The position numbers were made by a program, and so were the translations under genes. The notes under the pieces are model-generated. The model saw only the letters and a list, made by a program, of their open reading frames with translations. It searched no databases and was not told the origin of the DNA. From Chitinivibrionales bacterium (GTDB lineage Bacteria; Fibrobacterota; Chitinivibrionia; Chitinivibrionales; WJKA01), in the NCBI GenBank assembly GCA_014728215.1, contig WJLZ01000157.1:1-47921 (forward strand): 47,921 nucleotides of DNA. The letters run 5' to 3'. Shown one piece after another: positions 26,784-43,222 of this stretch (its first letter is position 1; every line of letters starts with the position of its first letter).

Positions 26784-26865
26784 TGAGAAATATAATACAA
26801 AATTATAACAAAAAAGAGTGATAATTTTTATAAATTCGCCAAATGGTGCAAAAGGAGGAAGGGCA

Positions 26866-29064
26866 ATGCAGCCGAAAATGTATTTAAAGTCATGCTTTTT
26901 ATTGTGCATGGTGTTCTTTGTTTGTATTCATGCCCAGACCCCTTCTCCCCGCTGCAAAATTAAAAATCTTGTTGGAACAGTAAAAATACGAAAAGGTGCC
27001 GGTCCCCGGTGGATTCCGGCTCGTCCGAGCATGACATTGAAAAAGAGCGATGCGGTTCGGACATTTGTTGAATCGATGGTTGAAATTGAGATGGCCGATG
27101 GTTCCGAGCTTACGCTCAACGAAAATTCCACCGTTGAGCTTACCGATTTGACACAGAAAAAATCCGGCGGCAAATCGACAAAAATTAAAATCATGACCGG
27201 CAAGGTCATGTCAAACATTCAGAAATTAACGAATGCAAAATCCAAATTCGAATTCGAAACTCCTACGGCGACAGCATCAATCAGAGGCACAAGGGTCGGC
27301 TTCGAAGTCAGTGGTCAGCAAACAGATGTGCGGGTGTATGAGGGTAAAGTATTTGTTGTGCCCAAGGGGTCCAAATCCGGTGCTGAAGTCGGCGCTAATC
27401 AGATGACCGCTGTAAAAGCAGGGCAGAAGACCGTGAAGATTGTCAAGCTTGAAGAACCTGAACCTGCAGAATCCGTCGGCCAGGTCGACAGCGCAGCGGC
27501 AGATACAACCCGGAGCGACAGCACAACTGCTGAAGACAGCATAACCGCAGAGGGCGCAGAGGAAGATACCGCTGCTGCGGTGAAGGATTCTGCAATGATC
27601 GAAGATACCTCTGAGGCCGAAGATGATGCGGTTGATCAGTCGGATACCGCAACGGTGGAGGATAAAGATACAACAGCCCGGATAGATCTGCGACTCAATC
27701 TCATCACGCCGAAAGAAGGCGCGGTTTTTCGCCCTAACAGTCAGATAGCGGTAGCTGGAAAAATCTCTTCTCCAAAGGCGAAGGTTGTCGTAGAAGGAAA
27801 GCCGGCAACGGTAACGCCGGGAGGCGATTTCAGGTTGACGCTCAATTCACCTGCCGAAGCCGGTGATTATGACATTACTGTAGAAGCTTCCCTGGAAGGA
27901 GAGTCAAAGTCGGCTATGGTTCGGTATAGGGTAGAGCTTCTTACAAAAGAATTACAATTGGTTATCAATTCACCAACCGACCGACAGGAATTTTCAAAGC
28001 CGGTTATCACCATACACGGCCTTTCGACACCTGGAGCTGAAATAACCTGTTCGGGGATGAAATTCCAGGTTGGGTCCAATGGCGCATTTTCAGGGCAGGT
28101 GCCGATTCCCGATGAAGAGGGAGAGCTGGAACTCGAATTCGACGCTATGATGGGAGGCGAAAGCAAGACGGTCACGCGTTCCATCGTGTACAAGCGCGAT
28201 GTTATGGCGCTTAATCTCAATGTGAGTTCTCCTTATGGAGGACAAAAAGTCTCGGAAGTACAGCTTCAGGCATCAGGGCAGGTCACTCCATTTGATGCCG
28301 AAGTGTATGCTGCAGGAAGAAAAATGTCGGTGGGTGCAAAGGGGAGTTTTACCGGTCTTGTTATGATCCCCAAAGAGCCGGGTGAGCATGAAATTGAATT
28401 TGAAGCTTCTACTGATGACAAAACTGTAACGGTTGCACGTCGGGTGGAATATGTTCCGCCTCCCGACAGAGATCGTCCCCAAATACAGGGGCAACTGCCG
28501 GCTATGTCACAGGAACGGATGCTTCCCTTTGCGGTAATTGACAGGACGCCCGATGATGAAATCATCTTTTATAAAGAGATTGACGGCTCTCGTGATTCGG
28601 AAAATGGTGAACCCGGCGGCCGTTTTTACCTCGAACTCGAGGAGGGTGTCCACGATTATGCGGTATGGGCCGAAGACAAGGCAAAGAATTCTTCAGCGCG
28701 GCTTGCAGGAAACGTCGCCTACATGGGAAATCTCATCACTATCAAAATGATTGATCCCATGGGTAATAAATTTTTCAGACTTCCTCCCGGTGCTCCTGGA
28801 AGCGATTTCGATCCGGAATATACTGTCAGATTCCGTCTCGAAAACCTTCCCGATGAAGATCCCGAAACATTGTCACGTCTGATTAAAGAAATCAGGGTGA
28901 CTAATTTAACCAGTGGACGAACCGAGACCATGAATAACCCGACAGATACTGATATCGAAATCGATATCGAATTGCGACGAAATGCCGTAAACAACATAGA
29001 AGTCAAGGTGGTCGACATAAAAGACCGAGTGTTTACCCGCACCGCTACCATTCATGTTCAGTGA
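26866..29064 (+). CDS. Secreted FecR-domain protein with Ig-like repeats
   Basis: A 732-residue protein beginning at ATG 26866, seven bases after AAAGGAGG; the upstream GTG in frame lacks a ribosome-binding site. A signal peptide (LKSCFLLCMVFFVCIHA) is followed by a FecR domain (about 30-180) with SVRTF-like, EIEMADGSELTLNENST and TPTATASIRGTRVGFEV. An Asp/Glu/Thr/Ala-rich linker (about 200-285) follows, then three tandem beta-sandwich repeats, each starting like LNLITPKEGAVFRPNSQIAV, LVINSPTDRQEFSKP and LNVSSPYGGQKVSEV. A further beta-rich region ends the protein. This is not a transmembrane sigma regulator; it looks like a periplasmic or surface structural protein. The beta-helix/barrel gene follows after 29 bases. 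Confidence 0.85.
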   Translation: MQPKMYLKSCFLLCMVFFVCIHAQTPSPRCKIKNLVGTVKIRKGAGPRWIPARPSMTLKKSDAVRTFVESMVEIEMADGSELTLNENSTVELTDLTQKKSGGKSTKIKIMTGKVMSNIQKLTNAKSKFEFETPTATASIRGTRVGFEVSGQQTDVRVYEGKVFVVPKGSKSGAEVGANQMTAVKAGQKTVKIVKLEEPEPAESVGQVDSAAADTTRSDSTTAEDSITAEGAEEDTAAAVKDSAMIEDTSEAEDDAVDQSDTATVEDKDTTARIDLRLNLITPKEGAVFRPNSQIAVAGKISSPKAKVVVEGKPATVTPGGDFRLTLNSPAEAGDYDITVEASLEGESKSAMVRYRVELLTKELQLVINSPTDRQEFSKPVITIHGLSTPGAEITCSGMKFQVGSNGAFSGQVPIPDEEGELELEFDAMMGGESKTVTRSIVYKRDVMALNLNVSSPYGGQKVSEVQLQASGQVTPFDAEVYAAGRKMSVGAKGSFTGLVMIPKEPGEHEIEFEASTDDKTVTVARRVEYVPPPDRDRPQIQGQLPAMSQERMLPFAVIDRTPDDEIIFYKEIDGSRDSENGEPGGRFYLELEEGVHDYAVWAEDKAKNSSARLAGNVAYMGNLITIKMIDPMGNKFFRLPPGAPGSDFDPEYTVRFRLENLPDEDPETLSRLIKEIRVTNLTSGRTETMNNPTDTDIEIDIELRRNAVNNIEVKVVDIKDRVFTRTATIHVQ

Positions 29065-29093: not shown

Positions 29094-32000
29094 ATGGGAA
29101 GATTGTCAGCAGGTATCTTCATTCTTCTGATATATATTTCTGCCAATGGGCAGGAAAAAAAGGGGCAAAACAGCAAACAGGAGAAGAGTTCTTCGGAAAT
29201 CGCCGCCGAAGAGAAGAAGGCGGCGCCAAAGCCCGAGGAAACCGATTCTTCCGATACCACCGATAGTACGAAGAAAGAAAAGGAACCGGAGAGTGAAAAG
29301 CCTGCTCTTGAAAAGAAAGAAAAGGCCAGCCCATCGGTTGAAAATGAAAAGTCCGGATATACCTCGGTCCCCGGCACGTTTGAAACCGAGCTGCCGGGCG
29401 GTATTCTTTTCGGCAAGTTCGACAGTTCCAGCAGCCCCTTTCTTATTACCGGAAGCATAATTGTTCCTTCAGGACAAAAACTGGAATTCGGTCCCGGATG
29501 CCGGGTTTATCTGGGCGGTGAATATCCAACCGTTACTGTCTTCGGTCAACTCATAGCCCGGGGGACCTCTGAAAAACCTGTTCTTTTCAGGTCGGCCAAC
29601 CGGAATCCCAAACCCTGGGACTGGGATAGGATTTATTGCAGAAGTCGTAACCGTTCGGTTTTTGAGCATTGCATTATCCAGCACTGTAATTATGGTCTCT
29701 TTGTTGAAAACGGTTCGGCCACGGTTGACCACTGTTTATTCGAGCAGAATTCGCTCCATGGGATGGTGGTTAAAAATTCGGATGTTTCGTTGCTGGATTC
29801 CCGCTTCCACAATGGCCATGTCCTGGCACTTTTTTTTCAGGAAGGAGCACGGGTCAGAGCCGAAAGCCTTCATGTGGTCAATAATATCACCGGTATAGCT
29901 TGTGGAAAGAAATCATCACTCAATCTGATCGGCGGCGAGATTACTAATAATACAAATGGTGTGGCGGTAAAGGAGGATGCCTCGGTAACGATCATAGGTG
30001 CCGAAATAACCCGCAACCGCAAAGGACTCGTCTCCCTGGTCGAAATTCCTAAAAAGGTGAGAGAAATGGTTTTTGCAAACGTGATAAATTTCGAGGTCGT
30101 TTCGAAAGATGAAATGGCCAGGATGCTTAAACCGCCGGAGGAAGTTGAATCGATAGTTTTACCCAAAACCACTGAAAAAGTCGATGTGGGAGAGGGTTTT
30201 AAATCGGGTTTTTCCGCTACCCATGCTCCACGGCAGCAGACTGTCAGCTTTATGGGAAATGTCACTGCGGGTTTCAAGTATTACAGTCCCGAATCAAAGT
30301 CCCATTCCATTTTGCAGAAAGAATATGACACGACCTATGCGGGAACCGATTCACAGAAGGTAAGTGTGCGATACTCCTCCAAAGACACGTTGGTCATGCA
30401 AAGCCGCTACCCGGGAGAACAGAACGACGAATTTTATGCCGGGTTCCAGCCGGAGATGCAGATTTTTGCCAGCGGCCGGCGTAAAGGCGCGGATCTCAAC
30501 CTGCTCATGGATGTCTACGGCAACCAGTGGATCGACCTTCCATTACATATGAAAAAAAATACTTTTAATTTAAATATCAACTATTACAACCAACATCTGG
30601 TGATGGGTGATTTTTTTGAAAGCAACTCAAAAACATCTCTGGAGAGCAGAAAGTTCACCGGCATCCGGTATTCCGCCGACTTATTGCCCATGGGGAAAGG
30701 CGCCAATCGAATCAATTTCAGGTTTGCCGGCGGAGAAACCGAATTTCCCAAAGATGTAGGTGATAATGATATCACCCTTTACAATGATACTGTGGATACA
30801 GGGATGTCGATCCGTCAGCAAATGACCTATCTTGCCGGATTTACAGTCAAGCCTACTCTGAATTCAAAGATCAACGTGAATAGCATTATCTCGAGGGATC
30901 AGGGGTACGAACCACTGTTCAGACGGGTCATTTCCGATCCTGAAGTGCCCGATCCTATTGAAGCCCAGACTGGGGCTATCGACGGTAGTGTTCTTTTATT
31001 TGATGATAAACTTACCCTTACCGCCGAACTCGATGTTGGCGTCCACGATACGCTGACACCTTCACAATCGGAGGAGATCCAGGAAATCGCCTGGTATAAG
31101 CCCCAGATCGGTGAGGCGGTATCAACCGTATTCAAAGAAATACTCGACCGTCACCTGGAACACTGGGCTATGTCGCTCGGCGCCGCCGGACTGGTCAATG
31201 GTTTTGACCTCGCGGGAAGCTTTACCCGTATCGGGCCGGAATATTTTTCGGCCGGAAATCCCTATCTTGAAGCCGACCGGTATATCGGAGAGCTGAAAGG
31301 GGAGAAGACTATTATCGAAAACCTTACCGCCGCCGCCGGATATGAATACGAAATGCGATATGCCACAAACAAATTCAATCTTGCTGCAGAAGAGTCCGGG
31401 CCCACTCATGTCAATACCATCGATCTTGATGGTGAATACACTTTCAGCCCGAAGTGGCCCTCGGTGGGAATAGAATACCAACTCATGATCGAAAATACGG
31501 ATGAACCGGGAGAAAAGTATATCGTTGATTATTCTACAATCCTGGATTCAACGATCAGTGATGACGGCCTGTCCAAAACGTATGACTATGCACTTGATAC
31601 ACTCGAGCAAAAATATCGAGAACTCGATATGAAAAATTTGTGGGGAATTCAATTAAAACAACGGTTCGACAACGGGATTAGTTACAGTCTCCGGTACCGC
31701 ACTATGTGGGATAACGACATGACCGACTATCCAAATCCGGAACTGGCTGTTGAGGATGACGGATGGCAGCATCAGATAAACACACGGTTCGGTTTTAAAA
31801 TTAAGCGGCTGATACGGAATACTACCACCTTCAAGATCACCACTAAATCAGAAAATCAGTACACTTTCGAAGGATTGTCCTATAAGATCGGCAATAAGCT
31901 GAAAGTAACGGCAATTCCGCGTAAATTGAGCTTTGAGCTCAAAGGCGATTATTATAACCGTACCGATGATGAAGATGAATATACCGAACTGGGTGACGAT

Positions 32001-32192
32001 GCTTACGATATTTTGAGAACGAATACTGTTACGAAATCCTACGGTATCGAAACTGCCGCAAAATATTCCCTATCTTCAATGCTCTCACTCACATTGATGG
32101 GCAGGTATGAAAAGAGCTCGGATGAAGTAGAGGGCTCCACCGAGAACTACGAAGTGATAATTGGAGGACTTCACGTAACTTATTTATTTTAG
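29094..32192 (+). CDS. Beta-helix protein with predicted C-terminal outer-membrane beta-barrel
   Basis: A 1032-residue secreted protein with ATG after AAAGGAG. A signal peptide (about 1-19) is followed by a Lys/Glu/Ser-rich stretch (20-85) and a right-handed parallel beta-helix (about 115-330). The helix repeats appear as VFEHCIIQHCNYGLFVENGS, ATVDHCLFEQNSLHGMVVKN and LIGGEITNNTNGVAVKEDAS. From about 375 to the end the sequence alternates polar and hydrophobic residues with many aromatic and Asp/Asn turns, and ends in ...HVTYLF, a C-terminal Phe typical of outer-membrane barrels. I infer a surface or periplasm-facing beta-helix anchored by a barrel. Function unknown; adjacency to the FecR-domain gene suggests they act together. 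Confidence 0.78.
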   Translation: MGRLSAGIFILLIYISANGQEKKGQNSKQEKSSSEIAAEEKKAAPKPEETDSSDTTDSTKKEKEPESEKPALEKKEKASPSVENEKSGYTSVPGTFETELPGGILFGKFDSSSSPFLITGSIIVPSGQKLEFGPGCRVYLGGEYPTVTVFGQLIARGTSEKPVLFRSANRNPKPWDWDRIYCRSRNRSVFEHCIIQHCNYGLFVENGSATVDHCLFEQNSLHGMVVKNSDVSLLDSRFHNGHVLALFFQEGARVRAESLHVVNNITGIACGKKSSLNLIGGEITNNTNGVAVKEDASVTIIGAEITRNRKGLVSLVEIPKKVREMVFANVINFEVVSKDEMARMLKPPEEVESIVLPKTTEKVDVGEGFKSGFSATHAPRQQTVSFMGNVTAGFKYYSPESKSHSILQKEYDTTYAGTDSQKVSVRYSSKDTLVMQSRYPGEQNDEFYAGFQPEMQIFASGRRKGADLNLLMDVYGNQWIDLPLHMKKNTFNLNINYYNQHLVMGDFFESNSKTSLESRKFTGIRYSADLLPMGKGANRINFRFAGGETEFPKDVGDNDITLYNDTVDTGMSIRQQMTYLAGFTVKPTLNSKINVNSIISRDQGYEPLFRRVISDPEVPDPIEAQTGAIDGSVLLFDDKLTLTAELDVGVHDTLTPSQSEEIQEIAWYKPQIGEAVSTVFKEILDRHLEHWAMSLGAAGLVNGFDLAGSFTRIGPEYFSAGNPYLEADRYIGELKGEKTIIENLTAAAGYEYEMRYATNKFNLAAEESGPTHVNTIDLDGEYTFSPKWPSVGIEYQLMIENTDEPGEKYIVDYSTILDSTISDDGLSKTYDYALDTLEQKYRELDMKNLWGIQLKQRFDNGISYSLRYRTMWDNDMTDYPNPELAVEDDGWQHQINTRFGFKIKRLIRNTTTFKITTKSENQYTFEGLSYKIGNKLKVTAIPRKLSFELKGDYYNRTDDEDEYTELGDDAYDILRTNTVTKSYGIETAAKYSLSSMLSLTLMGRYEKSSDEVEGSTENYEVIIGGLHVTYLF

Positions 32193-32196
32193 GTGA

Positions 32197-33498
32197 ATGA
32201 GCACTTATTCATCACGATCCGGATCACCCTGCCATTTTCTTACATCTTTTTTGTGGTGCATTGCCCTCAGTGCAATTCTTGCATTACCCCGCATTGCAGG
32301 ATCCATGATATTCATTCCCATGGATGATACCCAGACCGATCATTTGAAAAGCTATGGCCTTGTCTATAAAATGCTCGAAGACGGCAACAAGGTCTACTGG
32401 TGTCTGAACTACCGGGGCGGCTCTTTTGTGGCCGAGGATTCGAGAAAGTTCGAACTGAAAGCGCGGGTTGACGGCATTGAAATCAAGACAATTTCCCCGG
32501 CCGACTGGGCCCGGATTCTCGAGACGATCGATAACAACAATATGGAAAAGGTCACTCTCGAAAAATCTCCGAAAATCGCGGTTTATACCCCACCCAATAA
32601 GCTTCCCTGGGATGATGCCGTCACGCTTGCCCTGACCTATGCCGACATTCCATACAATAAAGTGTACGATGAAGAAGTTCTTGGTGGAAAGTTATCGGAA
32701 TACGACTGGCTTCACCTCCATCACGAGGATTTTACCGGTCAATACAGCAAATTTTATCGCTCCTTTAACCATACTCCCTGGTACCAACGCCAGAAAATGG
32801 AACTCGAAAAACGAGCCAAAAAGCTGGGATTCAACAAGGTCTCCGACTGTAAGAAGGCGGTTGCCCTTGCCATTCGCAATTATGTCGATAAAGGCGGATT
32901 TGTCTTTGCCATGTGCTGTGCACCCAATACATTCGAAATAGCCCTGTCGGCCCTGGGTGCCGATATTGTTGCTGCGCAGTATGATGGCGATGGTATCGAT
33001 CCGAACTATAAAAACAAACTCAATTTCGATAACTGCATGGGCTTTGAGAATTTTACTATCCAGACCGATCCCATGGCTACCTATTTCGGCAATATCGATG
33101 TCAATAAAGTCAATACGCCACTTCGGATACCGGCTGCCGATTTTGAGCTGTTTGATTTCAGTGCCAAACTCGATCCCGTCCCGACAATGTTAATTCAGTG
33201 TCATCAAAAGACTGTTCGAGGTTTTTTCGGTCTGGCAACATCCTACAACAAAGAGGTTATGAAAGAAAGCTCCGTTGTTCTTGGCTATGTGCCGGGTACT
33301 AAGCGGGTCAAATATCTCCACGGTGTATACGGAAAAGGAATGTTTGCCTATTACGGCGGCCATGACCCCGAAGATTATACTCATGCGGTTGGTGACAAAC
33401 CAACAGACCTCCAGTTTCACAAAAATTCTCCGGGATACCGTCTGATTCTCAACAATGTACTCTTTCCTGCTGCGGAAAAGAAGGAAAAGAAGACGTGA
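32197..33498 (+). CDS. Exported protein of the type annotated 'asparagine synthetase B' in Bacteroidota
   Basis: A 433-residue protein with an N-terminal hydrophobic segment (about 14-36) consistent with export. The start of the mature part (MIFIPMDDTQTDHLKSYGLV, then YWCLNYRGGSF) matches from memory a family annotated 'asparagine synthetase B' in Bacteroidota. I see none of the PP-loop or N-terminal Cys glutaminase features of true AsnB, so that name is probably wrong. The middle (NYVDKGGFVFAMCCAPNTFE) resembles a glutamine-amidotransferase-like fold with a possible nucleophile-elbow Cys. It starts four bases after the beta-helix gene and ends in a GTGA overlap with the transporter gene. Function unknown. 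Confidence 0.7.
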   Translation: MSTYSSRSGSPCHFLTSFLWCIALSAILALPRIAGSMIFIPMDDTQTDHLKSYGLVYKMLEDGNKVYWCLNYRGGSFVAEDSRKFELKARVDGIEIKTISPADWARILETIDNNNMEKVTLEKSPKIAVYTPPNKLPWDDAVTLALTYADIPYNKVYDEEVLGGKLSEYDWLHLHHEDFTGQYSKFYRSFNHTPWYQRQKMELEKRAKKLGFNKVSDCKKAVALAIRNYVDKGGFVFAMCCAPNTFEIALSALGADIVAAQYDGDGIDPNYKNKLNFDNCMGFENFTIQTDPMATYFGNIDVNKVNTPLRIPAADFELFDFSAKLDPVPTMLIQCHQKTVRGFFGLATSYNKEVMKESSVVLGYVPGTKRVKYLHGVYGKGMFAYYGGHDPEDYTHAVGDKPTDLQFHKNSPGYRLILNNVLFPAAEKKEKKT

Positions 33499-34817
33499 AT
33501 ACTGATTTGGAGTCCGGACAGGACGACGGATTCTTTTCCGCTACGCCCCAGGGGAGGCGGGCTGTCTGGTCATGGATTATGTATGACTGGGCAAATTCTG
33601 CGTATGCCATGACCGTGTTGGCTGCGTTTTTTCCGATATTTTTCAATGAATACTGGTGTGAAGGAGCCAATTCGACCGCTCGTTTGGGATTCGGCAATGC
33701 TGTTGCAGGGCTTCTCATTGCTCTGGTTTCGCCCTTTCTTGGTGCCCTTGCCGATACCGGGCATAACAGGAAACGTTTTTTAGCCTATGCGATGCTTCTG
33801 GGCGTTATTATGAGCGGAGCACTCTATTTTGTCGCCCCGGGGGCGTGGCTTACGGCTCTGTTTGTTTTTATTCCGGCCACGATCGGTTTTTCCTGTGCTA
33901 ATCTTTTTTATGATTCCATGCTCCCCATGGTTTCACCTCCCGGGAAAATGGATCTGGTATCATCAATGGGATTCGGTTTCGGCTATCTGGGATGCGGCAT
34001 TCTCTTTGCGATCAATATAGCGATGGTTCTCAAACCTCAGTTTTTCGGGCTGGCCAATGATGCTGTTGCGGTCCGGACCTCCTTCCTTACCGTGTCGATC
34101 TGGTGGCTGATTTTTTCGATCCCGATTCTACTCTTTGTCAAAGAACCCCGCGCCGAAAGGACTATCGGTACAAGTGAAGTTTACAGACGGGCGTTCATCG
34201 AGCTGGCGCATACATTTCGATCCCTGAAAAAAGAAAAAGGGATGCTGCTGTTTCTGTTTTCTTACTGGCTTTATATCGATGGCGTTCATACGTTTATCCG
34301 CATGGCTGCCGATCTTGGAAAATCGATCGGCCTTGAAAATGCCGTGCTAATGCGGGCTCTGTTACTGGTACAGCTTGCTGCATTTCCTGCAGCAATTCTT
34401 TTCGGGGTCATTGCAAAAAAAATCGGGACCCTCCGTGCGATTCTTATCGGCATCGGACTTTATACTTTTATTACCTTTGTTGCTCCGATGACTGTGAGGG
34501 GGGCGGGCATGTTCACTTTCTTTGCCGTGCTCTCCGCCGTTCCACAAGGATGTCTTCAGGCGCTGAGTAGATCCTATTTTGCCAATATTATTCCCAAAGA
34601 GAAAGCTGCCGAGTATTTTGGCTTTTATAATCTCATGGGGAAGTTTGCAGTATTTTTCGGACCACTGATGATTGGTGTCATTGTTGTCATATCACAGTCG
34701 GTGGGAGCCCGATCGGAGTATGCTTCACGGCTTGGTTTCAGTTCGACATCACTGCTTTTTCTGGCCGGCGGGGTAATGCTTTACTTTGCCGACAGGTCGA
34801 TCAGAAAAAAAGTCTAG
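33495..34817 (+). CDS. MFS transporter, UMF1/Atg22-like family
   Basis: A 440-residue protein with about 12 membrane helices. The N-terminus VWSWIMYDWANSAYAMTVLA is characteristic of the UMF1 branch of the major facilitator superfamily (related to yeast Atg22 vacuolar effluxers). LSRSYFANIIPKEKAAEYFG and NLMGKFAVFFGPLMIG in the second half are also typical. Substrates are poorly known; amino-acid efflux is reported for the eukaryotic relatives. GTG start overlaps the stop of the preceding gene, so it is coupled to the exported 'AsnB-like' protein. Confidence 0.87.
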   Translation: MNTDLESGQDDGFFSATPQGRRAVWSWIMYDWANSAYAMTVLAAFFPIFFNEYWCEGANSTARLGFGNAVAGLLIALVSPFLGALADTGHNRKRFLAYAMLLGVIMSGALYFVAPGAWLTALFVFIPATIGFSCANLFYDSMLPMVSPPGKMDLVSSMGFGFGYLGCGILFAINIAMVLKPQFFGLANDAVAVRTSFLTVSIWWLIFSIPILLFVKEPRAERTIGTSEVYRRAFIELAHTFRSLKKEKGMLLFLFSYWLYIDGVHTFIRMAADLGKSIGLENAVLMRALLLVQLAAFPAAILFGVIAKKIGTLRAILIGIGLYTFITFVAPMTVRGAGMFTFFAVLSAVPQGCLQALSRSYFANIIPKEKAAEYFGFYNLMGKFAVFFGPLMIGVIVVISQSVGARSEYASRLGFSSTSLLFLAGGVMLYFADRSIRKKV

Positions 34818-34845: not shown

Positions 34846-35397
34846 ATGGGGCAACGACGTGGAGATATTGAAACCAATTATGTGATCCGCAGCTTCGATG
34901 CGAACATATCGCTCGATGAATATAAGCGTCTGCCAAAGAATCCACTCTATATTATTGTCGACAATCTGCGAAGTGCATTCAATGTCGGTTCGATTTTCAG
35001 GATCGCCGATATTCTGCGGGTAAAAGGACTTTTTCTCTGTGGCTATACCGCGTTTCCGCCTCATATCAAACTCGAGAAAACCTCTCTGGGAACGATAGAA
35101 TATGTACACTGGAAACGATTCGAGCATACGCTTGATGCCGTTACCTATCTCAAAAAAAAGAATATTCCTGTCTGGGCCGCGGAGACAACATCTATCTCAA
35201 AGAAATATACCGCCCTCGAGTATCCTTCCGAACTGGGAATTGTTTTCGGTAATGAAGCGTTGGGGATACAACGGGACGTTATCGATGCCTGCGACCAGGC
35301 AATTGAAATCCCCACATACGGATTTAAAAATTCTCTGAATGTCGCCGCAGCGTGTGCGGTGATAGGATTCAAGTTTGTTGAAAAGACATGTAAATAA
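34846..35397 (+). CDS. SpoU/TrmH-family RNA 2'-O-methyltransferase
   Basis: A 183-residue SPOUT enzyme that methylates a ribose 2'-OH in tRNA or rRNA using S-adenosylmethionine. The three SpoU motifs are present: motif 1 NLRSAFNVGSIFRIAD, motif 2 GIVFGNEALGI, and motif 3 IPTYGFKNSLNVAAACAV, which form the trefoil knot. The length is that of a compact TrmH-like enzyme without an RNA-binding extension. Start follows AGGAAAGG. It lies 28 bases after the UMF1 transporter and converges on rpsU with a shared terminator. The target nucleotide cannot be told from sequence. Confidence 0.88.
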   Translation: MGQRRGDIETNYVIRSFDANISLDEYKRLPKNPLYIIVDNLRSAFNVGSIFRIADILRVKGLFLCGYTAFPPHIKLEKTSLGTIEYVHWKRFEHTLDAVTYLKKKNIPVWAAETTSISKKYTALEYPSELGIVFGNEALGIQRDVIDACDQAIEIPTYGFKNSLNVAAACAVIGFKFVEKTCK

Positions 35398-35451: not shown

Positions 35452-35652
35452 TTAGCGGTAACTCGTTCTTTTTTCGTCACGAATGCGTTTCCGCTTGGCA
35501 GCATTGAGCTTCCGTTTTTTCTCTTCACTCGGTTTTTCGTAATGGCGATATTTTTTAACATCAGAGAGGATACCCGCACGCTCACAGGTTTTAGTAAACC
35601 GTCGAAGGGCCTTTTCGATAGCCTCGTTGTCTCGGATATGAATACCGTTCAT
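35452..35652 (-). CDS. rpsU: 30S ribosomal protein S21
   Basis: A 66-residue, highly basic protein with the S21 pattern: short N-terminus, then EAIEKALRRFTKTCERAGIL, KKYRHYEKPSEEKKRK and a basic tail (KRKRIRDEKRTSYR). It binds the 30S platform near the 3' end of 16S rRNA and helps in initiation. ATG with a loosely spaced GAAGG upstream. Monocistronic here, converging on the methyltransferase gene. The 214-base gap upstream (35653-35866) is shared divergently with the sugar-binding protein gene and must carry both promoters; I could not pick convincing hexamers. Confidence 0.93.
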   Translation of the reverse strand: MNGIHIRDNEAIEKALRRFTKTCERAGILSDVKKYRHYEKPSEEKKRKLNAAKRKRIRDEKRTSYR

Positions 35653-35866: not shown

Positions 35867-37123
35867 GTGAAAAAATATCTTATTACACTCACACTTTTCG
35901 CTTTGATAGGCTGTTCCGGTCAAAAGGGGGCAGTAACATTCATGGTGGGAGGAACCGCAAACGATTTTACTTACTGGGAAGAAGTCATTGCTGATTTCAA
36001 GGAAAAAACCGGGATTTCGGTAGGTTTGCTTCGTTCGGCAGCGCAGACCGAGCAGCGTAAACAGCAGATATTGATAGCACTGCGAGGCAAACAGGCTGAT
36101 CCTGATATTGTCGTGATGGATATCGCCTGGATCGGCCAGATGGCCCAGTCGGGCTGGCTTGAAGACCTCGGTCAGTATGATATCGATACCTCGTTGTTTT
36201 TCAATAATATCATCGAGCTTGCCGACATCCACAATTCTCAGCTCATCGGTCTGCCTTTGTATGTCGATGCCGGAGTATTATACTACCGAAAGGATCTTCT
36301 GGAGAAATATGGCTATACCGGTCCCCCCGCTACCTGGGATGAGCTGGTATCCATGGCCACGAAGGTCCAGGCAGGAGAGCGGAAAACGAACCCTGATTTC
36401 TGGGGATTTGTATGGCAGGGGGCACAGTACGAAGGCCTTGTGTGCAATGCCCTCGAATTTTTTGCCTCTGCCGGTGGAAGCTTTTTCAATGGTGAAGGAA
36501 ATCCTGTGATTCGGAGTGCCGGCAATCTTCAGGGGTTGACCTTTATGAAAGAGTGTATTCATAGCCATGCAATTTCTCCGCCAAACACCTATACCGATAT
36601 GAAAGAAGAAGAAGTCCGTCTTCTCTTTCAGAACGGCAATGCACTGTTTGAGCGAAACTGGCCCTATGCTGCCAAACTTCACGATAATGAGGATTCCCAG
36701 GTATTGGGAAAGTTTTCAATCGATGTACTTCCTCATTTTAAAGGCCATAAGAGTGCATCCACGCTGGGAGGGTGGCATGTTGGAATCTCGCGTTACTCCG
36801 ATGCTAAATCCGAGGCTGCCCAATTTTTAGAATACATAACCTCCTTTGAGGTTCAGGCCGGGCTTCTCACCGAACTGGGCCATAATCCCGGACGAGTCGA
36901 TATCTATGACGATGTAAAAATCCAACGCGACCGTCTGGCAGAACTCAAGGACATATTCTATTCGGCGATTCCACGGCCCACTGTTCCGTACTATTCGCAG
37001 GTCTCACAGGTGCTTCAGAAGTATCTCAACGCTGCACTTGCCGGCCCCCTGGCGCCATCGGATGCCCTTGCTGAAGCACAGGAAGATATTCAACGTATTC
37101 ATGAGAGCTATAAGACCGATTAA
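35867..37123 (+). CDS. Sugar ABC transporter substrate-binding lipoprotein (CUT1 type)
   Basis: A 418-residue extracellular solute-binding protein of family 1 (MalE/UgpB-like). A lipoprotein signal ends in LIGC (Cys16). The mature protein has the family pattern: VADFKEKTGISVGLLR-like opening, ADPDIVVMDIAWIGQMAQSG, LIGLPLYVDAGVLYYRKDLL, TWDELVSMATKVQ, and KSASTLGGWHVGISRYSD in the second lobe. It starts at GTG six to seven bases after AAGGGG. The next gene begins inside its stop codon (TAATG). Downstream NamZ, MurU and AmgK-type genes suggest that the bound sugar is a MurNAc-containing saccharide; the sequence alone does not show this. Confidence 0.9.
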   Translation: MKKYLITLTLFALIGCSGQKGAVTFMVGGTANDFTYWEEVIADFKEKTGISVGLLRSAAQTEQRKQQILIALRGKQADPDIVVMDIAWIGQMAQSGWLEDLGQYDIDTSLFFNNIIELADIHNSQLIGLPLYVDAGVLYYRKDLLEKYGYTGPPATWDELVSMATKVQAGERKTNPDFWGFVWQGAQYEGLVCNALEFFASAGGSFFNGEGNPVIRSAGNLQGLTFMKECIHSHAISPPNTYTDMKEEEVRLLFQNGNALFERNWPYAAKLHDNEDSQVLGKFSIDVLPHFKGHKSASTLGGWHVGISRYSDAKSEAAQFLEYITSFEVQAGLLTELGHNPGRVDIYDDVKIQRDRLAELKDIFYSAIPRPTVPYYSQVSQVLQKYLNAALAGPLAPSDALAEAQEDIQRIHESYKTD

Positions 37124-38007
37124 TGAACTATCATCGAAAAGAAATACAAACCGCCTATATATTACTTCTTCCCGTTATCTGTATCGTAGCGCTGTTTATT
37201 CTGCTGCCGGTTATTGGGGCATTGTATAATAGTTTTTTTCGTGATGTAACCTATTTACCAAAGAAATTCATCGGGATCGAGAATTTTATATGGCTCCTTT
37301 CAAATCCCGATTTTCATCGGGCCCTTCTCTTTACCCTTCTCTTTACCTGTGCAGCAGTGGTATTGGAAACATTGCTCGGGCTTCTCTTTGCGCTCATGCT
37401 CAATGAGTCGTTCAAGGGGCGGGGATATTTGCGGACTATTATTCTGGTGCCCTGGGCAATTCCGACAATAGTGTCGGCAAAAATTTGGAATATTATTTTT
37501 AACTATTCATATGGGGTGTTGAATTATATAGTGATTTCCACCGGACTTGTTCCCGAGAGAATTAACTGGCTTGGAACCTCGAGTGCGGCTTTTGCCGCTC
37601 TGGTGATCGCCGAGGTATGGAAAACCACTCCTTTTATGGTATTAATCATTCTTGCCGGGTTGCAGGCGATCCCCCAGGAGCTCTATTATCAGGCCCGCAT
37701 TGACGGCGCCGGGGTTTTTAAACGATTCTTTGCTATCACCCTGATCATGATCCGCCCGGTGCTTGTTATCGCCCTGATTTTCAGAACCATCGACTCCCTG
37801 CGAATCTTCGATCTGGTCTATGTTCTCACCGGAGGAGGGCCTGGTGGAAGTACGCGGACGCTCTCCATGCTCGGGTTTGAAAATTACCTGGCCGACTCTT
37901 TCGGAAGAGGATCGGCGATATCGATCGCCACTTTTTTGGTTGTTTTCGGTATCACCCTTTTTTATATACGGGCCGGAAAGTTTTCTCAAAGTATCCGTCA
38001 AAAGTAA
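37123..38007 (+). CDS. Sugar ABC transporter permease (MalF/UgpA-like)
   Basis: A 294-residue inner-membrane permease with six predicted helices. It has the CUT1 start (YILLLPVICIVALFILLPVI), the helix LFALMLNESFKGRGYLRTII, and the cytoplasmic EAA loop YYQARIDGAGVFKRFFAI, which docks on the ATPase. The conserved DLVYVLTGGGPGGSTRTL near the end is typical of UgpA-type proteins. ATG overlaps the preceding stop by one base. It partners the next gene in a heterodimeric channel. Confidence 0.92.
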   Translation: MNYHRKEIQTAYILLLPVICIVALFILLPVIGALYNSFFRDVTYLPKKFIGIENFIWLLSNPDFHRALLFTLLFTCAAVVLETLLGLLFALMLNESFKGRGYLRTIILVPWAIPTIVSAKIWNIIFNYSYGVLNYIVISTGLVPERINWLGTSSAAFAALVIAEVWKTTPFMVLIILAGLQAIPQELYYQARIDGAGVFKRFFAITLIMIRPVLVIALIFRTIDSLRIFDLVYVLTGGGPGGSTRTLSMLGFENYLADSFGRGSAISIATFLVVFGITLFYIRAGKFSQSIRQK

Positions 38008-38024
38008 ATGGGATTATCATAATA

Positions 38025-38852
38025 ATGAAAGAGAACGCATTAAAAAAAATAATCCTCATTATCGGCAACACCTTTCTGGTGTTTTTTGCGCTGACTCCAT
38101 TTGTATGGATGCTTATCATTTCACTCACTTCCCGTGCCGATTTCCTGATCACCGGTGAGGTTGAATATACACTCCAGAATTATCGCAATATCCTGACAAA
38201 TACATCACTCCATTTTGGCAATTATTTTTTCAACAGCCTTATTGTTTCTTTAATTACCTCAATTTTCGTTACGATTATTGCATCTCTGGCCGGCTATGCC
38301 GTTTCGCGGCTCCAGTTTCCCGGAAGAATCGTCGTTCCCGTGGCTATTCTTGCTCTGTCCATGTTTCCGCCGATCAGTATTGTCGGGTATTTGTATCGTT
38401 TTTTTTCGGATACGGGGCTTTTAAATACCCATATAGCATTGATTCTGCCCTACACTGCACTGACAGTGCCCCTGGCACTCTGGATCAATATGAGCTATTT
38501 CAGTCAGATCCCTCGGGAGCTGGATAAGGCGGCGCTTATTGATGGTGCAGGCAGGATCGGAACACTCACTAAAATTGTTCTTCCCTTGGCACTCCCGGGG
38601 ATTTTCTCCTCCTTTTTACTGGTCTTCATTGCCTGTTTTAACGAATTCCTTTTAGCGCTCATGTTGACAATAGATTATCGGGCGCAAACACTGCCGGTGG
38701 GGATTGCATTGTTCCAGGGACTCCACGGAGAGATTCCCTGGGGAAATCTCATGGCTGCATCGGCCCTGACTGCGGTACCGCTGGTTGTGGTGACAATTAT
38801 TTTTCAAAAATACATCGTTCAGGGATTAATCGGCGGAGCCGTGAAAGGCTGA
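38025..38852 (+). CDS. Sugar ABC transporter permease (MalG/UgpE-like)
   Basis: A 275-residue permease with six helices and the MalG-type layout: an N-terminal helix (LIIGNTFLVFFALTPFVWML), SLAGYAVSRLQFPG, SMFPPISIVGYLYRFFSDTG, and the EAA loop ELDKAALIDGAGRIGTLTKI. The late segment ACFNEFLLALMLT is also typical. Separated by 17 bases from the MalF-like gene and by 13 from the ATPase gene. With its partner it forms the channel of a CUT1 importer. Confidence 0.92.
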   Translation: MKENALKKIILIIGNTFLVFFALTPFVWMLIISLTSRADFLITGEVEYTLQNYRNILTNTSLHFGNYFFNSLIVSLITSIFVTIIASLAGYAVSRLQFPGRIVVPVAILALSMFPPISIVGYLYRFFSDTGLLNTHIALILPYTALTVPLALWINMSYFSQIPRELDKAALIDGAGRIGTLTKIVLPLALPGIFSSFLLVFIACFNEFLLALMLTIDYRAQTLPVGIALFQGLHGEIPWGNLMAASALTAVPLVVVTIIFQKYIVQGLIGGAVKG

Positions 38853-38865
38853 AAGAGTTAATTAT

Positions 38866-39981
38866 ATGGATTCGTTACCCGTAAAACTCCATAATTTATC
38901 GAAATCATTTTTTACATTCCGGGGAACGACTGTTGTTCTGAAGGGTATTAATCTTTCCATTAATGCTGGAGAGCTGTTTGTTCTTCTTGGCCCGAGCGGG
39001 TGTGGCAAAAGTACACTGCTGAATTTGATCGCGGGGCTGGAGAGACCTACCGGTGGTTCGATTACTATCGGCGATAAAAATGTTGCCGACGCCACGGCCA
39101 AAATTTATTGTGAGCCCTTTGAGCGCGATGTTGCTATGGTGTTCCAGAGTTATGCGCTCTATCCGCACATGACAGTGGAGCAGAATATCGCTTTTCCTCT
39201 CACCAATCTGAAAAAGAAGCTTACTAAAGAAGAAATCGCCGCAGCCGTTCGAAAAAGCGCCGGGCTTTTGAAAATTGAAGAGCTGCATTCACGGAAACCA
39301 AGAGAACTGTCCGGTGGACAGCGTCAGCGTGTAGCGATCGGGCGGGCAATCGTTCGGGAGCCCAAAGTTTTTCTCATGGATGAGCCTTTGTCCAATCTCG
39401 ATGCCCAGTTGAGAATGGAAATGCGTGCACAACTCAAAGCCCTGCAGCAAAAACTCGGGATAACAATGATTTATGTCACCCACGATCAGATCGAGGCAAT
39501 GACCCTCGGAGACAGAATCGCTGTGCTCAACAAAGGTAAAATATCCCAGATCGGTACACCCGCCGATATTTATGAAAATCCGGATACCATTTTTGTCGCT
39601 AAATTTGTCGGTTCACCGCCAATGAATATTATCAGTGGTGAAATCAAATCGGATGGCGGCAAGAATATGCTGACAAATAGTGATTTTTCATTTATTATCC
39701 CCAGGAGCCTGAAAGAAACCATAAAAAAGAGGGGGGAGGGTGCGATAATCGGCATTCGTCCCGAACATCTCCGCTTTGGTACTCCGGGGGAGGGTGCTAT
39801 GGATGTGGAAATTTCGGTGATCGAAAATATCGGCGGTGAATACCTCTGCTACATACTTTTCGAATCCAATCGGCTGATCGTAAAGACCCCGGTTAAACCT
39901 TCGGAAAAACATGTATCGCTTCGGGTGGAGCCGGAAAAAATTCTGATTTTTGACATTGAGGGAAAGCGGGTGCGAAAATGA
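38866..39981 (+). CDS. Sugar ABC transporter ATPase (MalK/UgpC/MsmK-like)
   Basis: A 371-residue ATPase with Walker A GPSGCGKST (42-50), Q-loop MVFQSYALYPHM, signature LSGGQRQRVAIGRA (about 148), Walker B VFLMDEPLSNLD and switch His in YVTHDQIEAMTL. A C-terminal TOBE/regulatory domain follows (IGIRPEHLRFG). This is the CUT1 subfamily ATPase. Having its own ATPase completes the transporter: binding protein, two permeases and ATPase in order. Its last bases overlap the namZ start (ATGA). Confidence 0.94.
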   Translation: MDSLPVKLHNLSKSFFTFRGTTVVLKGINLSINAGELFVLLGPSGCGKSTLLNLIAGLERPTGGSITIGDKNVADATAKIYCEPFERDVAMVFQSYALYPHMTVEQNIAFPLTNLKKKLTKEEIAAAVRKSAGLLKIEELHSRKPRELSGGQRQRVAIGRAIVREPKVFLMDEPLSNLDAQLRMEMRAQLKALQQKLGITMIYVTHDQIEAMTLGDRIAVLNKGKISQIGTPADIYENPDTIFVAKFVGSPPMNIISGEIKSDGGKNMLTNSDFSFIIPRSLKETIKKRGEGAIIGIRPEHLRFGTPGEGAMDVEISVIENIGGEYLCYILFESNRLIVKTPVKPSEKHVSLRVEPEKILIFDIEGKRVRK

Positions 39982-41162
39982 TACGAACAAGGTCGGGGCT
40001 GGAAATTTTTTGTGATCGATTTCCAAAGGAGCTACATGGTGTTCGACTGGGAGTACTCTGCCATGCTCCATCGATCGATTCATCCTACCGTCATATAATC
40101 ACCTGTCTGAAGGAGATTCCCGAATGCACGCTTGGCGCCATATTCGGTCCTCAGCATGGGTTGTTTGGACAGACCCAGGATAATATGGTCGAGTGGGAAG
40201 GGAATATTCATCCTCAACTGAAAACACCGGTCTACAGCCTCTATGGTGCTGTTCGCAAACCAACTCCTGCGATGCTCGATTCGATCGATGCCCTGGTAAT
40301 CGATCTTCAGGATGTCGGCGCTCGTCCTTACACCTATATCTGGACAGTGAAGCTTTGCCTGGAGGCATGCGGTGAGCGGAATATTCCGGTATGGGTACTC
40401 GACCGTCCAAATCCGATTGGGGCTTTAGATTTTGACGGTCCTCTTTTATCTCCCGACTATTTTTCCTTTGTGGGAGGCGCCGAAATCCCGTTGTGCCATC
40501 GTATGACTATCGGAGAGATCGCACTCCTGCTCAAGCAAACATACTCCCCGGCAACCGAGCTTCATGTAGTGTGGATGGAGAACTGGTGGCGTAGCTCGTT
40601 ATGGTTCCAAACAGGACTTCCCTGGGTACTTCCCTCACCGAATATGCCGACTCTCGATACCGCTATAGTTTATCCGGGGATGGTCCTCCTCGAAGCAACG
40701 AATCTTTCCGAAGGAAGAGGCACAACCCGTCCCTTCGAACTGATTGGCGCTCCATACCTGCGAATCGACCGCCTGTTAGCTTCATTGAGCAACAAAAAAG
40801 TTCCCGGTACTGTTTTCAGAGAACATAATTTCATTCCCACATTCCAGAAATGGAAGGGAGATTATTGTCCCGGCATTCAGGTGCATGTGACCAATGTAAA
40901 GGAGCTCAATCCGGTTTTTCTGACTGCTACCCTGCTCGCTTCAGTTATTGAAACGGCCGGAGAACAATTTGCTTTCAAAGATCCACCTTATGAATACGAG
41001 ACCGAGAAAATGCCCTTTGATATTCTTTCCGGCGGTGATAAGCTGCGAAAACTGCTGAGTGTCGGAGCAATGGAACCAAAAATCAGGGAAGAGTGGAAAG
41101 ACGAGTATAAAAATTTCTTTGTTTTATTCAACGATATCACTCATTACCCCGAACTACTGTGA
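39978..41162 (+). CDS. namZ: Exo-beta-N-acetylmuramidase NamZ-like (DUF1343, GH171), no signal peptide
   Basis: A 394-residue DUF1343 protein. The family member NamZ of Bacillus subtilis removes MurNAc from the non-reducing end of peptidoglycan fragments. Family segments are clear: LGVLCHAPSIDSSYR, IFGPQHGLFGQTQDN (57 onward), VYSLYGAVRKPTPAML, VIDLQDVGARPYTYI, VWVLDRPNPIGALDFDGP, CHRMTIGEIALLLK and NLSEGRGTTRPFE. From memory the common motif is GPEHG; here residue 59 is Gln. The N-terminus (MIRTRSGLEIFCDRF) is not a signal peptide, so the enzyme should act in the cytoplasm on imported saccharides. Start overlaps the ABC ATPase stop by four bases, tying it to the transporter. Confidence 0.87.
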   Translation: MIRTRSGLEIFCDRFPKELHGVRLGVLCHAPSIDSSYRHIITCLKEIPECTLGAIFGPQHGLFGQTQDNMVEWEGNIHPQLKTPVYSLYGAVRKPTPAMLDSIDALVIDLQDVGARPYTYIWTVKLCLEACGERNIPVWVLDRPNPIGALDFDGPLLSPDYFSFVGGAEIPLCHRMTIGEIALLLKQTYSPATELHVVWMENWWRSSLWFQTGLPWVLPSPNMPTLDTAIVYPGMVLLEATNLSEGRGTTRPFELIGAPYLRIDRLLASLSNKKVPGTVFREHNFIPTFQKWKGDYCPGIQVHVTNVKELNPVFLTATLLASVIETAGEQFAFKDPPYEYETEKMPFDILSGGDKLRKLLSVGAMEPKIREEWKDEYKNFFVLFNDITHYPELL

Positions 41163-41215
41163 TTGTACAATAGAGAGATATTGCAGAAAAGTATGCAAAT
41201 CGATTTTCTTTAATG

Positions 41216-41221
41216 TATAAT
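41216..41221 (+). promoter_or_regulatory. Possible internal -10 element before murU
   Basis: A perfect TATAAT lies about 50 bases before the murU-like start in the 109-base AT-rich gap after namZ. No good -35 hexamer is spaced correctly, so a separate promoter for the murU-amgK pair is only a possibility. Confidence 0.25.
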
Positions 41222-41271
41222 TTTAAAAGTACGGGTGTATTACAAAAGTTAAGAAAGAGTCTTTTTACGGC

Positions 41272-42210
41272 ATGAGAGGATTCATACTGGCGGCAGGGTT
41301 CGGCACACGGCTCCGTCCTCTGACAAATCATATCCCCAAATCACTCCTTCCCGTCTGCGGTATCCCCCTTTTGGAGCGTCGGTTGAAGTTTCTTACCGAT
41401 AACGGCATTGAGACTATCGGAGTAAATTCTCATTATCTCCACGAACAGTTCGAGACCTTTCGGAATAACTGTCCTATCGGATTTGATCTCTTTCATGAGA
41501 CCGATTCGATCAGGGGAAGCGGCGGGCCGCTCTATTTTGCTAAAGATTTTTTACAGCAGTCGGACATATTCTGTATCTGCAATGCCGAACCTCTGACTGT
41601 CTTTGATTTACAAGAGAAGTATAGCCAATTCAGGCGTTCCTCGTCGGTGTGCACCCTGCTTGCCGCACCGTCGCCGGGCAACGGGACAGTCTTTTATGAG
41701 CCGGAATCGGGCGAATATGTCGGCCCCCGTAATGAAATTCAGAACAAGCAGGGGCTTGGGAGCGCCGATTTTATCGGTGTTGCCCTTTATCGGAAAGAGT
41801 TTCTGGAATTGATGCGGCCCGATGATTTCTCGATCCTGCCGATCTGGAAGCGGGCGCAGGAAAATGGCTTGCATGTAACGGTAAGTATTATCGATGAACT
41901 CTACTGGAAAGATATCGGTAATCCGGGAGAATTTGCAGAGATCCATTTTGATTTTCTGGAAGGAAAAACACCCCTTGATATTCCCCGGGATTATGTTTTT
42001 GACAGGGAGCGAAAAGTTGCCTTTCCCGCTGGCCTCGCTCGTGACCGGGCACAGCAACTTAAAGAGCATGTATGGTGCGATTCTGCTTCCTTGCCTGATG
42101 ACGTTGTATTTTTTAGATCGGTAATTTTGCAAAAACCAGTCAATCTTACAGAAAACGGTTCAATAGAAAAAGCAATTATTTCTTTCGGGGAGGTCGTTTC
42201 ACTTGAGTAG
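41272..42210 (+). CDS. murU: MurNAc-1-phosphate uridylyltransferase-like nucleotidyltransferase (MurU)
   Basis: A 312-residue sugar-nucleotidyltransferase. It opens with the nucleotide loop LAAGFGTRLRPLT (6-18) and IPKSLLPVCGIPLLERRL with Lys24, as in MurU and related pyrophosphorylases. IGVNSHYLHEQF, FICNAEPLTVF (position of the usual metal-binding Asp; here Glu is seen) and YWKDIGNPGEF follow. MurU converts MurNAc-alpha-1-phosphate plus UTP to UDP-MurNAc. The general family also includes other NDP-sugar synthases. The MurU call rests on the directly overlapping AmgK-like kinase and the NamZ gene. The C-terminal 60 residues are an extension of unclear role. Confidence 0.72.
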   Translation: MRGFILAAGFGTRLRPLTNHIPKSLLPVCGIPLLERRLKFLTDNGIETIGVNSHYLHEQFETFRNNCPIGFDLFHETDSIRGSGGPLYFAKDFLQQSDIFCICNAEPLTVFDLQEKYSQFRRSSSVCTLLAAPSPGNGTVFYEPESGEYVGPRNEIQNKQGLGSADFIGVALYRKEFLELMRPDDFSILPIWKRAQENGLHVTVSIIDELYWKDIGNPGEFAEIHFDFLEGKTPLDIPRDYVFDRERKVAFPAGLARDRAQQLKEHVWCDSASLPDDVVFFRSVILQKPVNLTENGSIEKAIISFGEVVSLE

Positions 42211-43222
42211 CAGGACAATTGTTTTAACACCGGCACAAGAAGAATTTTTAGAAAAGAACATACCGAGTTTTTCATTTTCTCTCTGGGATATTTCCGAAGC
42301 CGCAAATGCCGGCTCCGACCGCCGGTTTGTCCGTGTATCCCATAAAGATCATTCCGATCAATCGTATATCCTTATTATCTGGGACAGCAGCGAGCGCGAT
42401 TGGGGCCGTTTTGTGGCAATACAACGGGATCTCAAAAGTAGACTCAATTGCCTTCCCCATATCCTTCACCACGATGCATCACACGGCTTAATTCTCGAAG
42501 AAGATTTTGGTAATCGGACGCTCAATAAAGTCTGCCAAGCCAGTCTTTCGGAAAATGAGATGAGCGCTTTATATAAACGGGTGATCGGCGCTCTTGTCAA
42601 GTGGCACGGTGTCCGTCCAGGGTGGAGCAAAACGGTTGCATCCAGGAGTATGGATGAGGCCATGTTTTTATGGGAAAGCGATTATTTCGGTACCCATTGT
42701 GTGACTGAATTCGCTGGCTGCGATGACCTTTTAGATGACAGGTGGGAAAAGGAGCGCCGGGAATGCGCCTGGCTGGCGTCGAGTTTTCCCCGTGTGTGTA
42801 TCCACAGAGATTTTCAATCGGAAAACATTCTACTGTACCACAACAGGATCTGCTTTGTCGATTTCCAGGGAGCCCGGATGGGACCTGCGGCCTACGATCT
42901 GGCATCACTAGTGTATGATCCCTATGTTGAATTTCCTGGTAATGGATGGTTTGCCGATGAAATGCTTTCGTATTATCGTTCCTATGGCAGGGGCAAAATA
43001 GACCCGTCATCCTTTCGCATCTGTGCTGTTCAGCGGCTCATGCAGGCGCTGGGTGCCTATGCCAACTTATCTATTCACAAGAAAAAGCCCCGCTATCGGC
43101 ACTTTATGCCCATTGCACTCAAACGGCTTTATCATGTACTTTCGGCGGACACCGACTTTCCGCACCTCCGCACCATTACAGAATCCTGTCTGGAGCGAAT
43201 CGAGGTGGCGTCAACCGTCTGA
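42203..43222 (+). CDS. amgK: Anomeric MurNAc/GlcNAc kinase-like phosphotransferase (AmgK)
   Basis: A 339-residue aminoglycoside-phosphotransferase-fold kinase. The catalytic loop is IHRDFQSENILL (about 200) and the metal-binding segment CFVDFQGARMGPAAYDLASL, very like AmgK ('HRDxxSxN ... DFQDAxxGPxxYDLxSL'). The N-lobe has SDRRFVRVSH and the hinge GLILEEDFGN. AmgK phosphorylates MurNAc and GlcNAc at the anomeric carbon; MurU then makes the UDP-sugar, bypassing de novo UDP-MurNAc synthesis. TTG start behind GGGGAGG, overlapping the murU stop by eight bases, so the two are translationally coupled as in Pseudomonas-type salvage. Confidence 0.8.
   Translation: MSSRTIVLTPAQEEFLEKNIPSFSFSLWDISEAANAGSDRRFVRVSHKDHSDQSYILIIWDSSERDWGRFVAIQRDLKSRLNCLPHILHHDASHGLILEEDFGNRTLNKVCQASLSENEMSALYKRVIGALVKWHGVRPGWSKTVASRSMDEAMFLWESDYFGTHCVTEFAGCDDLLDDRWEKERRECAWLASSFPRVCIHRDFQSENILLYHNRICFVDFQGARMGPAAYDLASLVYDPYVEFPGNGWFADEMLSYYRSYGRGKIDPSSFRICAVQRLMQALGAYANLSIHKKKPRYRHFMPIALKRLYHVLSADTDFPHLRTITESCLERIEVASTV

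Follow-up and report, generated by a model that had tools for sequence, protein, structure and literature searches.

Does a sugar importer that overlaps a set of genes for salvage of N-acetylmuramic acid (MurNAc) also feed it? The question is raised by a 47,921-nucleotide stretch of DNA from a Chitinivibrionales bacterium (contig WJLZ01000157.1; hereafter the window), in which a complete ATP-binding cassette (ABC) importer of the CUT1 family, made up of a solute-binding protein (SBP), MalF- and MalG-type permeases and a MalK-type ATPase, leads directly into genes for NamZ (DUF1343, which we take to correspond to GH171), a MurU-like nucleotidyltransferase and an AmgK-like kinase. A preliminary description had read all seven genes as one pathway with a dedicated MurNAc transporter. 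The seven-gene observation is real: open reading frames and Pfam searches confirm the coordinates, the families and the overlaps of MalK with NamZ (4 bases) and of MurU with AmgK (8 bases), and chance family assignment is excluded because the Pfam scores of all seven genes exceed their gathering cut-offs. We consider it likely that two unrelated units are joined here, a trehalose/maltose-type α-glucoside CUT1 importer (unit A, 35867-39981) and a cytoplasmic MurNAc salvage unit (unit B, 39978-43222), and that A does not feed B. Of the ABC-coupled salvage first proposed, NamZ, MurU and AmgK stand as a conserved module, but the dedicated MurNAc importer is not supported.

NamZ, MurU and AmgK form one conserved module

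We detected NamZ in 56 of the 60 genomes around the window, its own included. Among 37 NamZ copies from 36 genomes of the window's order, 33 are followed directly by MurU, and in 32 AmgK stands behind MurU. The copies without MurU directly downstream are those of G008, G017 and G018 and the second of the G037 copies, which lies at a contig end, and the G014 locus stops before AmgK (G and L numbers denote genomes and loci). Ten further loci (L084-L093) come from genomes that belong to the phylum but are more distant: seven of them have MurU near NamZ, two have AmgK there (L085, a MurU-AmgK fusion, and L086), and L084, L089 and L093 have neither. AmgK itself was detected in 162 of the phylum's 167 genomes, including all 89 with at least 90% completeness and at most 5% contamination.

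The same arrangement recurs in other phyla. The best 80 loci of a genome_contigs search are a non-random sample, the query having been led by a NamZ sequence adjoining a MurU-AmgK fusion together with a Gln-biased motif; 74 are titled Nitrospirota or Thermodesulfovibrio kin, four have titles without a phylum, one is WOR-3 and one Blastocatellia. MurU and AmgK lie downstream of NamZ in 70 of them, as its immediate neighbours in 63 and at a distance of 0.5-4.1 kb in seven, and are fused in 69 of the 70 (two genes in L130). In five further loci MurU is close to a contig end, and in five (L126, L129, L138, L153 and L188) neither was found; the search models derive from sequences of the window's phylum and its relatives, and distant forms of MurU and AmgK could escape them. 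Fusions adjoining a Gln-type NamZ (see below), mainly from Nitrospirota, include L085:8706-10571, L107:9286-11343 and L109-L187; L187 and L210, whose contigs are equally long, are probably one record. When genes within 5 kb of NamZ were clustered across 173 loci, MurU/AmgK was by far the commonest family (117 loci), followed, with antisense shadows set aside, by the broad families of response regulators (20 loci), ABC ATPases (17) and a radical-SAM protein (14). NamZ–MurU–AmgK is one conserved module, retained in several bacterial phyla. We found no description of the three as one unit in the portions available to us of the literature searched, which covered fusions, Fibrobacter, Nitrospira, DUF1343 and GH171; one review, in its accessible part, names all three without placing them in one operon.

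The importer resembles trehalose/maltose systems and is unlinked in the other genera examined

A binding protein selective for MurNAc saccharides, as first envisaged, finds no support in silico: by sequence the SBP is a trehalose/maltose-binding protein. Its best match in the PDB is 1eu8, the Thermococcus litoralis trehalose/maltose-binding protein (TMBP), at 500.9 bits and 55% identity, with the next match at about half that score (257.9 bits). Nine of ten presumed TMBP ligand contacts are present in the window SBP (R49, D70, Y121, D123, W257, Y259, G294, W295 and R364) and the tenth, E17, is replaced by D; the congener G001 has all ten, and the remaining eleven orthologues have between eight and ten. 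Trp295 alone among the ten contacts is confirmed in print: it is placed within the TMBP ligand site, and the protein is given an affinity of 160 nM for both trehalose and maltose (PMC13311272). The comparison with the T. litoralis importer covered the SBP, and the window-type importer differs from it in adjoining NamZ in one genus.

The distribution of the importer is likewise its own. SBP orthologues occur in 13 of the 60 genomes. Two of these, G027 and G031, have the importer and no NamZ, and there the importer adjoins OtsA-OtsB, the trehalose-6-phosphate synthase and phosphatase (L055 and L056); NamZ is present in 45 of the 47 genomes without the importer. In the nine other importer-bearing genomes outside the genus, importer and NamZ lie on separate contigs, and MalK adjoining NamZ was not seen in the flanks read. 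OtsA is found in seven of the 13 importer-bearing genomes versus seven of the 47 others (p 0.007, uncorrected for relatedness), and the window's own genome encodes OtsA elsewhere (519 bits). Importer genes precede NamZ in two of the 37 copies of the order, both in the window's genus, and in none of the stretches read of the best 80 genome_contigs loci, so that the gene order on which the preliminary description relied is that of one genus; outside the genus at least 1 kb of upstream sequence was available for 28 of 35 copies, and in the other seven an importer could lie unseen.

Were the importer to bring in MurNAc-containing saccharides for NamZ, AmgK and MurU, the adjacency and overlap of MalK and NamZ in both species of the genus and the failure to find AmpG in the family would be accounted for, and an operon joining ABC genes to NamZ, NagZ and AnmK does exist in the unrelated genome G190. 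ABC import of muropeptides is also known: YejBEF-YepA of Agrobacterium, a peptide-type importer by the paper's own account, offers an ABC route for wall fragments into the cytoplasm (PMC9790009). This route is missing from the earlier list of MurNAc uptake systems (phosphotransferase system, MurT-type and permease). Against such a role stand the TMBP binding site, kept fully in the congener, the lack of linkage between importer and module in the other genera examined, and the two genomes with the importer beside OtsAB and no NamZ. We regard it as highly improbable, and on the strength of synteny, distribution and binding site we rejected the importer as part of the MurNAc module. From its sequence, unit A looks like a CUT1 importer of the trehalose/maltose type that lies beside the trio by chance.

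A predicted route from wall fragment to UDP-MurNAc

MurQ exceeds its cut-off in none of the 60 genomes, where partial matches reach at most 35 bits against a cut-off of 302, and the route used by E. coli is therefore closed to MurNAc. The window's genome does encode MurA (459.3 bits, cut-off 392.7), which argues for recycling and not for auxotrophy. AnmK gives only a partial match in this genome (21.8 bits, cut-off 24) and exceeds the cut-off in 30 of the 60; NagZ is represented by no more than a 121-bit GH3 match, under the 207-bit cut-off that three of the 60 genomes pass. The likely role of the trio is Pseudomonas-type recycling of MurNAc to UDP-MurNAc.

In the pathway that we infer, Gln-type NamZ would release MurNAc in the cytoplasm from a peptide-free wall fragment of the MurNAc–N-acetylglucosamine type, the substrate having entered by a route other than the unit A importer. 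AmgK would then phosphorylate MurNAc at C1 at the expense of ATP, MurU would form UDP-MurNAc with UTP, and UDP-MurNAc would join lipid II synthesis at MurC, by-passing MurA and MurB.

The trio is a variant of the known Pseudomonas-type MurNAc recycling, and the importer is its neighbour. In common with the Pseudomonas pathway (AnmK, MupP, AmgK and MurU) is the use of AmgK and then MurU to reach UDP-MurNAc without MurQ (PMC5371407). By contrast, the window adds a co-encoded, apparently cytoplasmic NamZ, AnmK and AmpG are not over cut-off in its genome, and its MurU and AmgK are remote from the known enzymes; in most Nitrospirota loci read the two are fused. Scavenging in Tannerella forsythia (MurT, AmpG and AmgK/MurU) shares the step from MurNAc to UDP-MurNAc through AmgK and MurU; T. 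forsythia lacks MurA and MurB (PMC7670621), whereas the window genome has MurA. In several phyla that have been little studied, the module links NamZ with the recycling shortcut to UDP-MurNAc as genes inherited together. AmpG was undetected in most of these bacteria.

NamZ divides into a Gln type and a Glu type

To judge from sequence, DUF1343 comprises two types, of which the Glu type is mostly secreted and the Gln type apparently cytoplasmic. The 174 NamZ copies compared comprise 145 with a PQHG motif, 28 with PEHG and one fragment. NamZ of the window carries PQHG at residues 58-61, with Gln59 in place of the Glu of Glu-type NamZ, and no signal sequence is visible at its start. Gln-type proteins have in addition an invariant N69-M70 and a PYEY motif near the C terminus. 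Of 144 Gln rows 86 were aligned, Nitrospirota being sampled at one row in four, together with 27 of the 28 Glu rows. The motif position is Gln in all 86 and Glu in all 27, the groups being defined by that motif; on a quick tree with the motif columns left out, the Glu/Gln state takes two changes.

The NamZ copies read from the phylum have GPQHG, and neither inspection nor a hydrophobicity test, a heuristic for signal sequences, pointed to such a sequence at their start. A DNA pattern encoding GPQHG occurs in 152 of the 167 phylum genomes versus 21 of 224 genomes outside the phylum, and in no genome when read backwards. Of the 145 Gln-type copies, 115 have MurU or AmgK no more than 3 kb away, versus none of the 28 Glu-type copies, and a hydrophobic N-terminal stretch is present in three of the former and 17 of the latter. 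For other phyla, 80 genomes were hand-picked from the 224 in favour of Gln-motif carriers, and 40 listed loci and ten further loci were read; six of the 23 Gln-type copies in genomes outside the phylum are linked to MurU/AmgK, and linkage is therefore common, not a rule. Both types stand in tandem in G301 (L200).

By sequence and by fold, the best match of the window NamZ is 4k05. An AlphaFold model of moderate confidence (mean pLDDT 67) matches it with E 3.6e-27 and TM 0.71, and 4jja (1.7e-18) is the only other PDB fold match with E of at most 0.001; both structures carry Glu at the motif. The window protein shares both Pfam domains and the 4k05 fold with the NamZ exo-β-N-acetylmuramidases, such as Bacillus subtilis NamZ and T. 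forsythia NamZ1/2, and differs from them in the Gln for the PEHG Glu, in N69-M70 and PYEY, and in that no signal sequence is visible. That Glu, Glu92 of B. subtilis NamZ, is reportedly the proposed catalytic residue. With the Glu changed to Gln and N69-M70 and PYEY gained, Gln-type NamZ may, unlike the secreted exo-muramidases, transfer MurNAc instead of hydrolysing, for example onto phosphate, which would yield MurNAc-1-phosphate for MurU and leave AmgK to serve free MurNAc. We think this unlikely; if true, Gln-type NamZ would be a wall-sugar phosphorylase.

Among the Glu-type loci, one of 28 is a compact run in G190, a genome outside the phylum, at L229:6220-16927: a lytic-transglycosylase SLT protein, an SBP/permease fusion, a second permease (MalG), SpoIID, a Glu-type NamZ, NagZ (230 bits, cut-off 207) and AnmK (482 bits, cut-off 387). 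The preliminary description imagined an ABC-coupled wall-salvage operon of this kind; here it occurs in a different lineage, and the enzymes are different too.

Enzyme identity, substrate entry and the MalK/NamZ junction

Several observations weigh against two independent units with a working recycling route. NamZ of the window has Gln at a position that is Glu in every aligned Glu-type protein. MurU and AmgK score far under their equivalog cut-offs: the MurU and AmgK NCBIfam models are the best matches of the nucleotidyltransferase (71.2 bits) and the kinase (72.3 bits), and the cut-offs of 250 and 550 are not reached, so that both names are remote assignments. In the PDB the MurU-like protein is closest to 7whr (62.4 bits), a nucleotidyltransferase that is not further specified, ahead of MurU 8hhd (56.4), a mannose-1-phosphate guanylyltransferase (55.3) and 4y7t (53), a MurU that is listed as a nucleotidyl transferase. 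In the window MurU the GxGTRLRPxT loop is kept and the N-x-D metal site reads NAE; Glu replaces the metal Asp in three of 117 MurU sequences, those of the window, G001 and G002, the other 114 having Asp. Because of this replacement, MurU of the window's family may be slow or altered. No entry route for the substrate was found, AmpG being absent from the window's own family. Finally, each of the two species of the genus has MalK overlapping NamZ (by 1 base in G001), with a gap between NamZ and MurU.

The weak equivalog scores raise the prospect that the nucleotidyltransferase and kinase serve another sugar, such as a capsule or heptose precursor, with NamZ a bystander. The nucleotidyltransferase also matches the mannose-1-phosphate guanylyltransferase model (62 bits), this model and GlmU-like ones score nearly as high as MurU, and for L107 the top-scoring model is GlmU-like. 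The MurU/AmgK pair is nevertheless frequently linked to NamZ across phyla, often as a fusion. Among seven nucleotidyltransferases and seven kinases of relatives, the MurU model is best by bits for six of the former and the AmgK model for all of the latter, never over the cut-off, with other kinase models below 25 bits; the window kinase matches essentially AmgK models alone. The motifs HRDxQSxN and DxQGAR are invariant in nine aligned AmgK sequences, keeping both HRDxxxxN and DxQ, the catalytic motifs of the kinase family. A different sugar is accordingly, in our judgement, quite improbable.

Two candidates for substrate entry were rejected. AmpG has no match in the window's genome, its congener or the sister genus, and full-length AmpG-type matches in 12 of the 60 genomes (194.7-239.4 bits) stay under the 350-bit cut-off. 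The MFS gene at 33495-34817 (Atg22/MFS) was considered as a MurNAc permease; in L051 it is found next to SpoU and the importer, whereas NamZ lies on a different contig.

In the window's genus, co-transcription of NamZ with the importer is probable, because MalK overlaps NamZ whereas a gap precedes MurU. Regulation could thereby have been co-opted: the importer would carry trehalose/maltose, and its promoter would drive NamZ in this genus, tying salvage to carbon supply or osmotic state. The overlap kept in two species, a gap of 109 bases between NamZ and MurU where most relatives have none or an overlap of a few bases, and a MalK/NamZ junction free of terminator-like sites all speak for this idea. 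It is drawn from two genomes, however, and promoter-like sites are no commoner than in shuffled sequences (13 versus a mean of 11.9); we give it little credence beside the preferred reading of two units joined by chance.

The flanking genes suggest how unit A came to lie beside unit B. In eight of 31 searched loci of the order outside the genus, the immediate neighbour of NamZ, encoded on the other strand, is a gene that we identify from its sequence as rpsU (L067, L069, L074-L078 and L097), and in six of the eight, all without the importer, SpoU follows behind rpsU (L069 and L074-L078). Elsewhere rpsU stands beside the importer (L045 and L051). The window has the order SpoU, rpsU, importer, NamZ, and G001 the order rpsU, importer, NamZ, its importer being split over two contigs inside MalF and the link read across the break. 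G002, from the sister genus, has the importer behind SpoU-rpsU (L051), while NamZ-MurU-AmgK lies on another contig (L058) and shares the window's two downstream genes. The simplest history would have the importer inserted between rpsU and NamZ in the family and the two units separated later in G002, a direction that we infer: unit A would have arrived at this junction in the window's lineage, and its last gene now overlaps NamZ.

Locus layout and other features of the window

Table 1 Genes at the junction of the importer and the salvage module
Feature	Position	Strand	Remarks
SpoU-family RNA methyltransferase	34846-35397	+	PF00588 110.1 bits; upstream flank kept in relatives
rpsU (bS21), presumed	35452-35652	-	Between SpoU and SBP
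TMBP-like SBP, CUT1 importer	35867-37123	+	GTG start; SBP_bac_1 136.6 bits
MalF-type permease	37123-38007	+	BPD_transp_1 65.8 bits
MalG-type permease	38025-38852	+	BPD_transp_1 59.5 bits
MalK/UgpC-type ATPase	38866-39981	+	ABC_tran 126.8, OB_MalK 37 bits; UgpC subfamily 418.6 of 432 bits
NamZ (DUF1343), Gln-type	39978-41162	+	NamZ_N 240.1 bits, NamZ_C 146.3 bits
MurU-like sugar-1-phosphate nucleotidyltransferase	41272-42210	+	NTP_transferase 53.3 bits; NAEP, with Glu in place of the metal Asp
AmgK-like anomeric sugar kinase (APH family)	42203-43222	+	TTG start; APH 59 bits

Other parts of the window hold genes of separate character. A 433-residue protein without a Pfam match (32197-33498) adjoins the MFS gene here and also in G001 and G002, at 81% and 72% identity. 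Further upstream, a FecR-domain protein (26818-29064) is followed by a 1032-residue protein with a right-handed beta-helix stretch (29094-32192). The window opens with two adjacent magnesium-chelatase-like AAA genes, one of them with a VWA domain (34-2881), and behind this pair lies a gene for a NicO/DsbD-like membrane protein (2974-4464).

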